Source: Desulfonatronospira thiodismutans ASO3-1 (GTDB lineage: Bacteria > Desulfobacterota > Desulfovibrionia > Desulfovibrionales > Desulfonatronovibrionaceae). Taken from it: 64,000 nucleotides of DNA. The stretch covers positions 1,229,658 to 1,293,657 of the forward strand of contig NZ_ACJN02000001.1 of the NCBI RefSeq assembly GCF_000174435.1. The letters run 5' to 3'. A program made the translations under genes and the position numbers. Shown one piece after another: positions 4,048 through 50,312 of this stretch (position 1 is the first letter of the stretch; each line of letters starts with the position of its first letter). The notes beneath the pieces were generated by a model. That model was not told the origin of the DNA and did no database searches. It saw nothing but the letters and a program-made list of their open reading frames with translations.

Positions 4048-4113
4048 TCCAGCACTCACTTTTGACAATGAAGAATTACCAAGTAAATAATAGTATTCAA
4101 AGTGAGTGCTGGA
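4048..4113. repeat. Hairpin element, TCCAGCACTCAC family, copy 1
   Basis: A 66-bp element whose ends TCCAGCACTCACTTTT and AAAGTGAGTGCTGGA are inverted repeats around an AT-rich loop. Further copies are at 7405-7474 and 14171-14221. The stem differs between copies at matched positions, so pairing is preserved. Confidence 0.75.
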
Positions 4114-7300: not shown

Positions 7301-7396
7301 CCAGGAGGGAAGCCGGGCGGCAGGGACACTGCCAATCCCGTCAGGCCCGAAAGGGAGCAGCGGTAACAGCTGGACCTGGGTGCCCGGCTTCCCTGG
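7301..7396 (+). ncRNA. ffs: Small signal recognition particle RNA (4.5S type)
   Basis: A ~96-nt RNA with the universal SRP domain IV: GTCAGG-CCC-GAAA-GGG-AGCAGC (about 7340-7361), a GNRA tetraloop (GAAA) flanked by the Ffh-binding asymmetric loops. The ends pair as AGCCGGGC (7310-7317) with GCCCGGCT (7382-7389). The RNA works with Ffh to target membrane proteins. A terminator-like stem with a T-run follows directly. Exact 5' and 3' ends are estimated from pairing. Confidence 0.88.
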
Positions 7397-7489
7397 CAGG
7401 GGCGTCCAGCACTTACTTTTAGACTGAGGCTTTAGATCAGAGCAGTTAAATTAAAACTAAAAGTAAGTGCTGGACGCCCCTGCTTTTTT
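7396..7489 (+). terminator. SRP RNA terminator with a hairpin element in its loop
   Basis: GCAGGGGCG (7396-7404) pairs with CGCCCCTGC (7475-7483) and is followed by six T residues, a normal intrinsic terminator for ffs. The space that should be a short loop holds a 70-bp hairpin element (7405-7474), so the total stem is about 26 bp. Confidence 0.75.
7405..7474. repeat. Hairpin element, TCCAGCACTTAC family, copy 2
   Basis: Inverted ends TCCAGCACTTACTTTTAG and CTAAAAGTAAGTGCTGGA. Compared with copy 1 (4048-4113), a C-G pair has become T-A on both arms. It sits exactly inside the loop of the ffs terminator stem. Confidence 0.8.
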
Positions 7490-13977: not shown

Positions 13978-14445
13978 TCTCTCTCCTGACTAAGTTTTTT
14001 AAAAATTTAGTGTAACTATTCAACCTCTGCTGAAGCTGAACTATATAAGGCGGGCATTGCCCGCAACCCAATAAAGAAAAGAGCTATTTGACAGGATTAA
14101 CAGGATTAAGAGATGGATTAAGAGAAAAGTCATTTTGTCCTGGCCGGAAGCCAGGCCAAAAGGTTATCACTCCAGCACTCACTTTCTTCCGGCACTCATG
14201 AAGAAGAAAGTGAGTGCTGGATGGTTAATGCAATCTGCGGCTTCCGGCTTGCCCTGTGAAATTCCGCAGGACAGCGCAGCTGATTTCACCGGGGCCGCTG
14301 ATTGCTTATCCTGTCAATCTATGCCTGCCACGCTTCTTTGGCGTGGTTAATCCTGTCTAAGGCCTGCCACGCGCAGCGCGTGGTTCTTATTTTTTGTGAC
14401 ATGGTCTCAGGATTAAGTCTAAACGTCATGGTTAATAATTACGCC
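13978..14445. repeat. Intergenic region packed with hairpin elements
   Basis: No gene is seen. It holds a GCGGGCATTGCCCGC palindrome (14050-14064), a GACAGGATTAACAGGATTAA motif (14090-14109), copy 3 of the TCCAGCACTCAC hairpin (14171-14221), a GTGAAAT/ATTTCAC stem-loop (14251-14295), and two CCACGC/GCGTGG hairpins (~14326-14346 and ~14366-14385). Confidence 0.7.
14171..14221. repeat. Hairpin element, TCCAGCACTCAC family, copy 3
   Basis: A 51-bp element with ends TCCAGCACTCACTTTC and GAAAGTGAGTGCTGGA. The innermost pair is C-G, where copies 1 and 2 have T-A. Confidence 0.75.
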
Positions 14446-15146: not shown

Positions 15147-15781
15147 AGCCAAATCTCCTGTTGCAAATATAAGGATTTTTAAACTTCTATGGACCGCTTG
15201 TACTTTTTTCTCGGATCAGCGGGAACTAAAGTTCTGTAAACAAAACAACGTAACTAATCAGCACCTGCTAAAGCTGGACAATCTAAGCGCTCTTTGCGGT
15301 TCCATGGCCCGGGGGCTTTGCAAACTGGGCGTAAACTGTTTGAGCAACGCTTCCTTGGAGCTCGCCCTGTTAAACACCGCATAGCGGTCCTGCTTCTTAT
15401 TGTTCCCACGCTCCGCGTGGGAACAATCTTCGGACGCTCCGCGTCCAAAATGACCGCAGGAGCGGTCGAAAAACGTTCCCACGCAGAGCGTGGGAACGAT
15501 AAAAAACCAGACCCCAGTATATATATTTTTTCATGACGCTTGTCCTGCCGGGTAAAAATGTTATCAGTAATTGGTTATCTGCTTTTTACCTGATTACAAA
15601 TAACTTCCAAGTAACCAGACTTTTTCCTCTACCCTGCGCGATAAAAGAGGCCCGCTCGGGACAATTTCATACAGCACGGTCTACTCCCCTCCTTGGTTAA
15701 GGAGGGGCCGGGGGTGGTTCGTTCTAAATGATCACTTCCTTATCCAGTTAGCCACAGGTTCGGCTGGAACACTGACCCTCT
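15147..15781. repeat. Intergenic region with REP-like palindromes and a partial duplication
   Basis: Two GTTCCCACGC...GCGTGGGAAC palindromes (15402-15424, 15475-15497) are followed by a ~42-base near-copy of the lipoprotein gene start (15507-15548 versus 14837-14878) and a CCCCTCCTTGGTTAAGGAGGGG hairpin near 15690. I see no coding sequence. Confidence 0.65.
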
Positions 15782-25459: not shown

Positions 25460-26598
25460 TTAAGTCTTTATTCGTTTAAAATAAACGTCAAAATCCTCAG
25501 CCATCCACAATTTCTTTGAGTCATTTTTTGAGTTAGAAGTCTTTTCTGAATAAAGCCTGTCCGAAAGTTCAAGGATTTTTTCCTTCATAGCCAGTTTTTC
25601 AGTCCAGTGCGGGGGGATGCCGTCAAAGCCGTAATATGCCCCGGCCAGCTGACCGCAGACAGCCGCTGTGGTGTCTGCATCATCTCCTAAGATTAGCGGC
25701 CCGCAGGACTGCATCTCTAAACGAAACGGACCTGGCAAAACACCACAGGGCCGCTTCCAGGCTCTGGACCACGTATCCGGTTCCATAAAGATCCGACTCA
25801 TCTTTTTCCAGGTACCCTGCCCTGGCAATGGCTGTAATTTTCTTACTTCCCCGAAAAGAGTCCCTGTCCGCCAGGAGTATTTCTTCTTTGCTCCGCCCTG
25901 ATAAAGCCCTGACCGTCATCCTGGCCAAGAGTCTGCAAGCATCGATGCATTCCTCTGCCCCGTGGGTTGTCCTGGAGCTTTGCCCGGCCATGCTCTCAGC
26001 CAGATCCATATCAGGAAAGTACTTCATGGGTACTGGTGCCAGGCGCATAATGGAGCCGTTGCCTGCCGACCTGGGATGGGTTGAACCGGAGTAAGGCTCA
26101 CCGGTTTTCAGGTATATTTGCAAAGCCGAAGCCACGGTACTGCCGATATCAAAGCAGGACCCGGTGCTGCTCAGGTATCCGGTTTCCATCCACCTGCAGT
26201 ATCTTTCCATCTGGTCCCGGACGTCAAACCCGCCCTTTTCAGTCAGGCTCTCTGCCAGGCACAGGGCCATGGTAACCATTCAGGGGGGTCTCGGTGGTGG
26301 CTACTGGCACCAGGCCTGGGGACTGTCCCGCACTTATTTTTCCAACGCCAACAGCCAAAAATTGTCCATCAGAAAAAAAATAAGTGCGGGACTGTCCCCC
26401 GGGACGTTTCCTGCGCCCCCTGAATGGTTACGAGGTATCATCAGTCCACTGACCCGGACGCAGATTAAACGGTCCTCCACCGACCATATCTCTGAGCGGC
26501 TCAAAGCTGCCCCTGGGCATAAACTCCACGGTGGTGCCCACGGCATCACCGGCAGCCAGGCCGGCGAGGCAGCCCCGGAATCTGTCTTGTGTGGTCAA
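25460..26598 (-). pseudogene. ADP-ribosylglycohydrolase (DraG-type), split by a mobile repeat and frameshifted
   Basis: Three pieces make one gene. Piece 1 (26598-26432) starts at a TTG and gives [19 protein letters not shown]...WTDDTS. Piece 2 (26271-25689) continues as MALCLAESLTEKGGF...[12 protein letters not shown]. Piece 3 (25687-25460) has [21 protein letters not shown] 160-bp inverted-repeat element (26272-26431) sits inside the conserved WTDDTSMAL motif, and removing it restores the motif in frame. One extra base at 25688 breaks the frame just before GDDADT, the second metal-binding motif. Family members remove ADP-ribose from proteins or DNA. It begins 9 bases after the UvrD-like gene and was probably the last gene of the defence operon. 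Confidence 0.88.
26272..26431. mobile_element. 160-bp inverted-repeat element (GTAACCATTCAGGGGG ends), inside the glycohydrolase
   Basis: The 16-bp ends GTAACCATTCAGGGGG and CCCCCTGAATGGTTAC are perfect inverted repeats. The centre is a second long hairpin (GGGACTGTCCCGCACTTA.../...TAAGTGCGGGACTGTCCC). No open frame. It is nearly identical to the element at 28794-28952. No target duplication is visible here: the flanks join exactly to restore the host codons. Confidence 0.88.
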
Positions 26599-28793: not shown

Positions 28794-28952
28794 GTAACCA
28801 TTCAGGGGGTCCTGGTTGGTGATTACTGGCACCAGGCCTGGGGACTGTCCCGCACTTATTTTTCCAACGCCAACAGCCAAAAATTGTCCATCAGAAAAAA
28901 ATAAGTGCGGGACTGTCCCCGGGCCGGTTCCGGCGTCTACCTGAATGTTTAC
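28794..28952. mobile_element. 159-bp inverted-repeat element with 8-bp target duplication, at the 3' end of the large helicase gene
   Basis: Ends GTAACCATTCAGGGGG and CTACCTGAATGTTTAC, with the same central hairpin as 26272-26431. GTGTAAAC is duplicated on both sides (28786-28793 and 28953-28960), a clear 8-bp target duplication. The insertion supplies the TAA that now ends the helicase gene; the original last codons can still be read beyond the element. Confidence 0.9.
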
Positions 28953-48735: not shown

Positions 48736-49043
48736 CTGCTGCACCATTAAATACCGTTTGTAGTCTGCACCTAAGGGCTTGAGGACTATGGCACGTTATG
48801 TCCTCAATTGACTGGTACTCAAAAACATGCAACTTGAATATAGTGAATATTCGCCGGAGGAAATGAATGGCCCCTTTGGTGCTTCGTTTTGAGGGCTTAA
48901 AATTCTTTTTTTATTCAAACTTCTGCTTGGGCAGGGAGATTTGACCTTGAGACTTTGAAAGGATTATTTGATGGGAGGCTGGGACTACCTTAAATACCAC
49001 AGCCAAACTCTACTCTCTGGCCGGAATACAAGAATCTTTCAGC
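48736..49043. other. Intergenic region, nothing recognised
   Basis: No gene, clear promoter or repeat is seen between the tetR stop and the inverted-repeat element at 49044. Confidence 0.5.
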
Positions 49044-49194
49044 GTATCTGTTTAGCGCTTTGCATGTGGCATGGGGACTGGCTCTTCCGGGACCCACTTG
49101 TCCCAAAAAATGAGATATTTTAAGCACAAAATGATGCTCAAGTGGGTCCCGGAGTGCCTGTCCCCTGCTTTCCTTAAAAGCGCTAAACAGATAC
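49044..49194. mobile_element. 151-bp inverted-repeat element with 8-bp target duplication
   Basis: Ends GTATCTGTTTAGCGCTTT and AAAAGCGCTAAACAGATAC, an inner hairpin CCGGGACCCACTTG/CAAGTGGGTCCCGG, and flanking duplication CTTTCAGC (49036-49043 and 49195-49202). A half copy (one end and half of the inner hairpin) lies at 60822-60882. Confidence 0.9.
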
Positions 49195-49300: not shown

Positions 49301-49388
49301 TTGCACGAATCGCGTCCGGCGCGAAACGTGCAAAACAGGACGGGCATGGGCGTAAGTTTACACAACGCGTCCGGCGCGAAGTGTGAAC
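49301..49388 (+). repeat. Two REP hairpins upstream of the RAYT gene
   Basis: REP1 (49301-49334) has stem TTGCACG/CGTGCAA around CGCG-TCCGG-CGCG. REP2 (49356-49388) has the same core with stem GTTTACAC/GTGTGAAC. Both point the same way. Confidence 0.85.
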
Positions 49389-49406
49389 TTAGAACGGCAG
49401 TTTGAT

Positions 49407-50312
49407 ATGGAGACGATGCCAGCAGGTAACGAACAGCGTGTATTTCGGGCCAGGTATAAGATCGATACACCTGGTCTGATTTCGCATATTACCCAGCGGG
49501 CAGCAGGCAAAGAGCCTTTATTTCTGGATGACAGAGATTATCTGACTATGCTGGGGCTCTTCAAGGAAAGCTCGGAAAAGTTCAGTCTTGATTATTATGC
49601 CTTGTGTCTCATGCCCAACCACACACACGCTCTTTTAAAGCCAAAGGAAAGGAATCTGGCCGTGGCCATGCGCTCAATATTTTCCAGGTACGCAGCCAAA
49701 TTCAACCGCAGGTACGAACGTCGTGGACATCTTTTTGGGGGTCGCTATCGTCAGTCCGTGTGCCTTGACGACACTTACCTGTTGACCGCATCGGTTTACA
49801 TACATCTAAATCCTGTCCGCGCCGGTCTGGTAGACGATGCACTTCAGTACAGGTGGACTTCAAGTGCTCTTTACTGCCAGGATAATCCCAAGGAATCCTT
49901 TATTGACCCGGGACCGATTCTTGAACTGGTGGATGATGACGGACAAAAGGCCCGCAGGAAATACCGGCGTATTCTGAAGAAAGCCAGGGGAGAGGAGCCT
50001 GAGAACGCCCTGGAGCACCAGGGGGCCATTGAAAGATTCTGTATTCGCCTTTCAGAGATTTTTCCTGGTTTGTTCAAAAGGCTTGGCGGGAAAAAAGATG
50101 CAGGTCAGGACCATACGCCTTCTTTGCTTGAACTGACCGAACTGGAGCAAAGGCTGCAGGACCTTGGCAATGCCCGTGCCCGCAACGAGGAAAGCAAAAT
50201 GGTCAGGAAATATATTGTGGAACAGCTTATTGCCCGGGGTTACAAAAAGACTGAGATCGCTGAGAAGCTGGGGATATCGCTCAGGAATGTTTATTATATC
50301 CTTAACTCATAG
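49407..50312 (+). CDS. REP-associated tyrosine transposase (RAYT, TnpA-REP)
   Basis: A ~301-aa Y1/HUH single-strand nuclease. Visible are HITQRAAGKEPLFLDDRDY, the HUH motif in LMPNHTHALL, the SIFSRYAAKFNRRYERRGHLFGGRYRQ block, and the candidate tyrosine region YLLTASVYIHLNPVRAGLV. It carries an extra C-terminal helix-turn-helix (KKTEIAEKLGISLRNVYYIL), as in the longer RAYTs. The start is uncertain: a GTG at 49383 lies inside REP2, while ATG 49407 lies outside it; neither has a good ribosome site. REP hairpins on both sides are its probable substrates. Confidence 0.88.
   Translation: METMPAGNEQRVFRARYKIDTPGLISHITQRAAGKEPLFLDDRDYLTMLGLFKESSEKFSLDYYALCLMPNHTHALLKPKERNLAVAMRSIFSRYAAKFNRRYERRGHLFGGRYRQSVCLDDTYLLTASVYIHLNPVRAGLVDDALQYRWTSSALYCQDNPKESFIDPGPILELVDDDGQKARRKYRRILKKARGEEPENALEHQGAIERFCIRLSEIFPGLFKRLGGKKDAGQDHTPSLLELTELEQRLQDLGNARARNEESKMVRKYIVEQLIARGYKKTEIAEKLGISLRNVYYILNS

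Follow-up and report, generated by a model that had tools for sequence, protein, structure and literature searches.

The window, the whole 64,000-nt stretch of Desulfonatronospira thiodismutans ASO3-1 (G000) DNA that was analysed, carries the SRP RNA gene ffs, which was found once when the whole genome was searched. The gene ends in an intrinsic terminator with a long palindrome between its two arms, and the following features can be assigned at the locus:

7304-7399, plus strand: SRP RNA gene ffs (full-length match to Rfam RF00169, 61.5 bits)
7396-7404, plus strand: 5' arm of the original terminator stem, GCAGGGGCG (from the sequence; the sister-genus genome G010 has the same arm)
7405-7474, no strand: 70-bp palindromic element with arms TCCAGCACTTACTTTTA, replacing the terminator tip (from the sequence, folding and repeat searches)
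7475-7483, plus strand: 3' arm of the terminator stem, CGCCCCTGC, pairing with GCAGGGGCG (from the sequence)
7484-7489, plus strand: T6 tract of the intrinsic terminator (from the sequence)

A preliminary description of this DNA had claimed a complete 70-bp hairpin element in the loop of the ffs terminator. This is borne out, as the palindrome at 7405-7474 lies inside the stem that precedes the T6 tract and belongs to a multicopy family. The insert continues the terminator stem in register and leaves the stem base and the T-tract unaltered, and from these intact parts of the sequence termination is inferred to be retained at ffs despite the element. The RNA fold of the terminator region has an energy of -58.5 kcal/mol compared to -31.0 +/- 3.7 kcal/mol in 200 shuffles (z -7.4), and the 17-nt arm of the insert has 10 matches in the window at up to 3 mismatches where 0.13 are expected. 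The shuffled folding, the excess of arm matches and the count of the paired pattern against its control (see below) rule out a chance hairpin. A search of the D. thiodismutans genome gave no second copy of the core of the ffs element.

The members of the family share conserved arms of ~14 nt (TCCNGCACTNANTT), while their cores are free to vary. The paired-arm pattern TCCNGCACTNANTT..AANTNAGTGCNGGA has 81 strict matches in the D. thiodismutans genome and the reversed control pattern has none; two sub-patterns cover 30 and 49 of the 81. These copies are 51-72 bp long, and the family is thus short, non-coding and multicopy with 14-nt terminal inverted repeats, as is typical of MITEs. The pattern is present in 10 of 61 genomes (D. 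thiodismutans included), six of them from one genus, again with no control matches. When 117 distinct copies were compared, the arms were common to all, and a simple k-mer rule placed the cores in 28 groups. In the same comparison most copies of this genus were found within a few recurrent outer repeats, so the copy number exceeds the number of insertions. Besides the ffs insert, the arm and repeat searches and the repeat comparison located these copies in the window:

4048-4113, no strand: element copy next to a GTTCCCACGC-type palindrome, outer repeat class D (arm and repeat searches)
14171-14221, no strand: element copy, outer repeat class A (arm and repeat searches)
26326-26391, no strand: element copy at the dyad of GGGGACTGTCCCC with CTG on either side, outer repeat class C (repeat comparison)
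28848-28912, no strand: second class C element copy (repeat comparison)

Class C repeats also exist without the element, which in the occupied copies sits at the dyad of GGGGACTGTCCCC between two CTG motifs. For the outer repeats B and D, comparable element-free copies carry a short, different middle in its place, and the change there therefore resembles replacement of the tip and not a clean insertion. At 15395-15506 the window has a REP-like group of GTTCCCACGC and GGACGC palindromes around a short CCGCAGGAGCGG hairpin, which corresponds to outer class D without the element.

The preliminary description had proposed to compare ffs terminators in related genomes. Loci were obtained for 30 of the 37 genomes having ffs, and the terminators of 28 of these could be parsed. 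Two contain the element (D. thiodismutans and G002, which is of the same genus), 24 have a short hairpin, one (G017) has no clear hairpin, and one, G003 of the same genus, ends in a long hairpin whose sequence is unrelated. The two unparsed terminators (G022 and G032) were judged by eye to be short. According to the preliminary description, relatives with the same long structure but unrelated sequence would refute its reading; G003 is in part such a case, and 24 of the 28 parsed terminators are short. The terminator of the sister-genus genome G010 reads GCAGGGGCG-CTTATACCAAG-CGTCCCTGC with an 11-nt tip and no element, and in G002 the element lies between the very same two arms. As the arms are identical, the element occupies the place of the 11-nt tip of the sister genus. 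The core of the G002 element is inverted relative to that at ffs in D. thiodismutans, and since the latter genome has no other copy of this core, the difference suggests an inversion in place. Two independent insertions are also possible. In the G002 locus (L061) there is a second, imperfect element between the ffs terminator and the next gene, with GCTA on both sides, as judged by eye.

Copies of the element inside structured RNAs were identified by Rfam scans of mostly element-bearing loci, in batches of 19, 18, 20, 20 and 20 (some loci repeated) after an earlier scan of five. Excluding tRNA and rRNA and counting repeated loci once, 9 of the 11 RNAs that reached the gathering score hold the element or a close form. 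These are five RNase P RNAs (L187, L202, L209, L228 and L239), one c-di-GMP-I riboswitch (L186) and three cobalamin riboswitches (L194, L258 and L008). No element was visible in the two others, a TwoAYGGAY RNA (L249) and a cobalamin match (L008) that was cut off. A further c-di-GMP-I match (L219) scored 19.2 bits, below the 35-bit threshold, and has the element aligned to the same hairpin as in L186. The cobalamin riboswitches of D. thiodismutans (L008) and of a MAG labelled as the same genus (L258, G005) have the insert in the identical terminal hairpin. Twenty stretches around element ends in two Bipolaricaulota genomes and G005 gave no Rfam RNA.

In the alignment of the RNase P RNAs, L202 has two near-identical copies in the terminal loops of P3 and P12; in L209 and L239 the element fills the terminal loop of P9 and P12, respectively. 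For L187 and L228 we place the element after P12, where P13/P14 of the model are unaligned. The helix names (P3, P9, P12, P13/P14) are those that we presume from class A RNase P RNA. None of the RNA-resident copies has flanking direct repeats, and they appear as tip-for-tip replacements.

An RNase P RNA match was found in 34 of the 41 genomes of the order, and all 34 RNAs were read. Nineteen of them contain the element hairpin when up to one mismatch is allowed in each 10-nt arm core, distributed as 11/14 in family f1, 3/4 in f2 and 5/5 in f4, with 0/11 in families f3, f5 and f6. Element hairpins were also seen in the RNase P RNAs of several MAGs from other orders. The P12 hairpins of f1, f2 and f4 may go back to a single ancestral event. 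In D. thiodismutans the RNase P RNA is 533 nt long; its P3 consists of a single element, and in P12 a second element is nested in the loop of the first (fold -83.6 kcal/mol). Among the 10 genomes in which both cores are long enough for comparison, the P3-P12 pair from within the genome is the best match in five (G013, G016, G029, G009 and G017) and not in the other five, one of which is tied. The core nearest to P3 of D. thiodismutans is that of P12 in G006. Copying between RNase P hairpins is therefore likely, though it is not uniform.

Flanking sequences were compared at 39 sites chosen as representatives. Six of these (L189, L201, L203, L225, L317 and L245) lie between exact direct repeats that are 4 bp long or longer, compared to an expectation of 39/256 = 0.15. 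Imperfect-end cases beyond the 39-site count are L312 (CTAG) and L316 (CTTG), and the outer classes C and E have 3-bp flanking repeats. The 4-bp repeats favour a transposase with a staggered cut. When judged against re-paired flanks, seven of the 39 sites (F, A, D, L167, L193, L238 and L181) have inverted flanks at or below the 5% level, and with so few we claim no general preference for palindromes. The RNA sites fail this test because their entire tip has been replaced. For some copies the observations agree with staggered-cut DNA transposition; the copies in RNA stems would have come by a second route without duplication or have been trimmed later. Single-end searches of 12 plus 10 genomes, several of them fragmented, returned short pairs only and no autonomous element or parent transposon, and the same was true of a parent transposon in 20 plus 20 stretches, most of them around element ends.

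A genome contig collection was scanned with the pattern relaxed at one end, which gave at least 80 loci. Among the matches listed, 50 full copies were read, many from Desulfonatronospira and others from MAGs labelled by their depositors as Omnitrophota, Patescibacteria, Komeilibacteria, Moraniibacteriota, Bipolaricaulota, Planctomycetota, Desulfobacterales, Peptococcaceae and others. By arithmetic, ~58 chance matches are expected in the collection for the relaxed 19-base pattern and ~1 for the full 22-base pair, so the claim of a distribution across phyla rests on the full copies and their context. The copy found in one Pacearchaeota MAG (L213) corresponds to class D of Desulfonatronospira, possibly owing to a binning error. 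Within Omnitrophota the element is rare, with a strict copy in 2 of 384 genomes. In most of ten stretches from one Omnitrophota genome (L299-L308, G066), the element forms the centre of a larger composite palindrome and has further small hairpins to its left and right. Another copy (L190, 3750-3801) is in a tRNA cluster, where a few bases separate it from the 3' end of one of the genes. Viral contigs gave no match to the paired pattern or to the stricter pair; two single-end matches had no matching second end in the stretch and were read as chance.

We consider it probable that the ffs insert is a copy of a mobile, palindromic, MITE-like family with conserved arms of ~14 nt and free cores, which is moved by a transposase in trans and favours dyad centres or hairpin tips. 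The family is multicopy, has the same arms in several phyla, is flanked by 3- or 4-bp repeats at some sites, has one copy nested in another and forms hairpin tips in RNase P RNA, the two riboswitch classes and the ffs terminator. In favour of this explanation are the 81 strict copies against none for the control, the element-free counterparts of the ffs terminator and of class C, the 4-bp repeats at six sites, the element in 9 of the 11 scanned RNAs and in 19 of the 34 RNase P RNAs, and the nested and paired copies within single RNase P RNAs. The element would move as DNA and would prefer, or survive best at, dyad centres and hairpin tips. Its stem would there prolong the host stem and keep the host fold, which at ffs is the terminator. 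Since the insert alters neither the hairpin base nor the T-tract, RNA polymerase would still terminate and the insertion would be tolerated. The same tolerance may account for residence in the peripheral helices of RNase P RNA and riboswitches, where selection on the RNA helix would preserve the arms of the element. The inverted core at ffs and the likeness between P3 and P12 cores could come from recombination or template switching between palindromes. The points against this explanation are the lack of an autonomous element, the lack of repeats at the RNA copies, the inverted flanks at only 7/39 sites, the replaced tips in several element-free counterparts, the possible common descent of the P12 hairpins and the clustering of most copies of this genus in a few outer repeats, which inflates their number relative to the insertions.

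A wider reading, which we put forward tentatively as a possibility, is that this cross-phylum mobile hairpin targets the tips of folded nucleic-acid hairpins as such. RNase P RNA (P3, P9 and P12), the cobalamin and c-di-GMP-I riboswitches and the SRP RNA terminator would then be safe harbours, where the tip is replaced, the stem is extended in register and the element is kept by selection on the host RNA. What is recognized may be a cruciform, single-stranded DNA or even RNA. The element seems to be a selfish DNA that has settled at the ends of essential folded RNAs, where it does no harm.

Hairpins could also be copied without a dedicated transposase, if a nascent strand switches to a palindrome with similar arms, copies it and returns, so that tips are exchanged during replication or repair. 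This would explain the replacement of tip for tip without flanking repeats at the RNA sites and in the outer repeats B and D, the core inverted between D. thiodismutans and G002, and the P3 and P12 cores that are most alike within the genome in 5 of 10 genomes. Six of the 39 sites have 4-bp flanking repeats, which speaks against it, however, and a terminal sequence of 14 nt that is fixed across phyla would be superfluous for a purely structural process. We therefore find this route unlikely as an explanation of the family.

The presence of the same arms in RNase P RNA, riboswitches and the ffs terminator could alternatively reflect a functional RNA hairpin motif, e.g., a protein or RNase III site, under selection in several RNAs. 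Against such a motif stand the 81 copies in one genome, mostly in dispersed repeats, and the nesting of one copy in another, and the same RNAs occur without the element in f3, f5 and f6, as do most ffs terminators. This makes a functional motif quite improbable.

The preliminary description had suggested an inserting enzyme that targets hairpin loops, as single-strand (HUH) transposases could do. The first part stands as far as insertion and residence at hairpin tips are concerned, as seen from the short tips of the sister terminators and the copies in RNase P RNA and riboswitches; the HUH transposase is not supported. Residence at tips would suit such an enzyme, and the D. thiodismutans genome has 31 Y1_Tnp matches. 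A related hairpin also lies upstream of the window's own Y1 gene (about 49383-50312):

49086-49153, no strand: related hairpin with arm TCCGGGACCCACTT, two mismatches per arm to the motif, inside another MITE (from the sequence)

Yet none of the 20 Y1 loci inspected among the 31 matches has a strict copy or end of the element, and the Y1 gene in L261 is flanked by a different inverted sequence, as judged by eye. To our knowledge, HUH enzymes make no target-site duplications, whereas exact repeats of at least 4 bp are found at 6 of the 39 sites. With the Y1 genes and their flanks searched without a strict copy and with these flanking repeats, an HUH or RAYT enzyme was rejected as the mover, and a single-strand (Y1) transposase inserting at hairpin loops is in our view very improbable. 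The MITE around the related hairpin is a separate element of ~150 bp with terminal repeats GTATCTGTTTAGCGCTTT, found at approximately 49041-49190 in the window and at ~319-472 in L023, with 8-bp flanking repeats seen by eye. The Y1/RAYT-like gene comes after it.

Finally, an ordinary long ancestral terminator, as the long terminator of unrelated sequence in G003 of the same genus might suggest, is hardly credible given that 24 of the 28 parsed terminators are short and that the insert belongs to a repeat family.

If the mobile-family explanation is true, part of the variation in peripheral-helix length of RNase P RNA and riboswitches would be the work of one mobile element. It would also represent a natural case of an insertion that spares function through RNA folding, and the target choice of hairpin-seeking mobile DNA could be tested directly. 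In the open-licence literature we found no description of one arm motif shared by the hairpin tips of several RNA classes across several phyla.

Insertion at hairpin loops or peripheral RNA helices is known for IS1397 in REP loops, the intervening sequences of 23S rRNA and the STRR of cyanobacterial RNase P RNA. IS1397 is a full insertion sequence, and the 23S intervening sequences and the STRR have other sequences than the element described here. REPINs and their RAYT transposases resemble our system in the paired inverted repeats and in the presence of Y1 genes in the same genome, but differ in that the strict motif is absent beside the 20 inspected Y1 genes and that flanking repeats are found at some sites.

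Prokaryotic MITEs, some of which insert into one another (PMC10969869), are likewise short, non-autonomous and multicopy with inverted repeats and in some cases flanking repeats. Compared to MITEs, the present element is almost wholly palindromic with a free core, resides at RNA hairpin tips and comes without a parent transposon in our searches. In organelles, the Volvox palindromes, the repetitive hairpin elements of sponges and the double-hairpin elements of Allomyces are mobile hairpins with conserved stems and free loops, often inserted in one another (PMC2670323; PMC2800124), and nested palindromes are on record for Volvox (PMC2670323). No flanking duplications are reported for the Allomyces elements (PMC2670323; PMC2800124). 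The organelle elements differ in their organelle genomes, in their sequences and in having no arm motif shared across phyla.

The nearest precedent is the Rickettsia palindromic elements, short mobile palindromic repeats that are also found inside the tmRNA and RNase P (M1) RNA genes and for which the source gives the mechanism as unknown (PMC2229807). They are described there as 105-146 bp long, confined to Rickettsia and known mainly for in-frame insertion into protein genes (PMC2229807). Size, host range and insertion into protein genes, as described in that source, set the Rickettsia elements apart from the family reported here.
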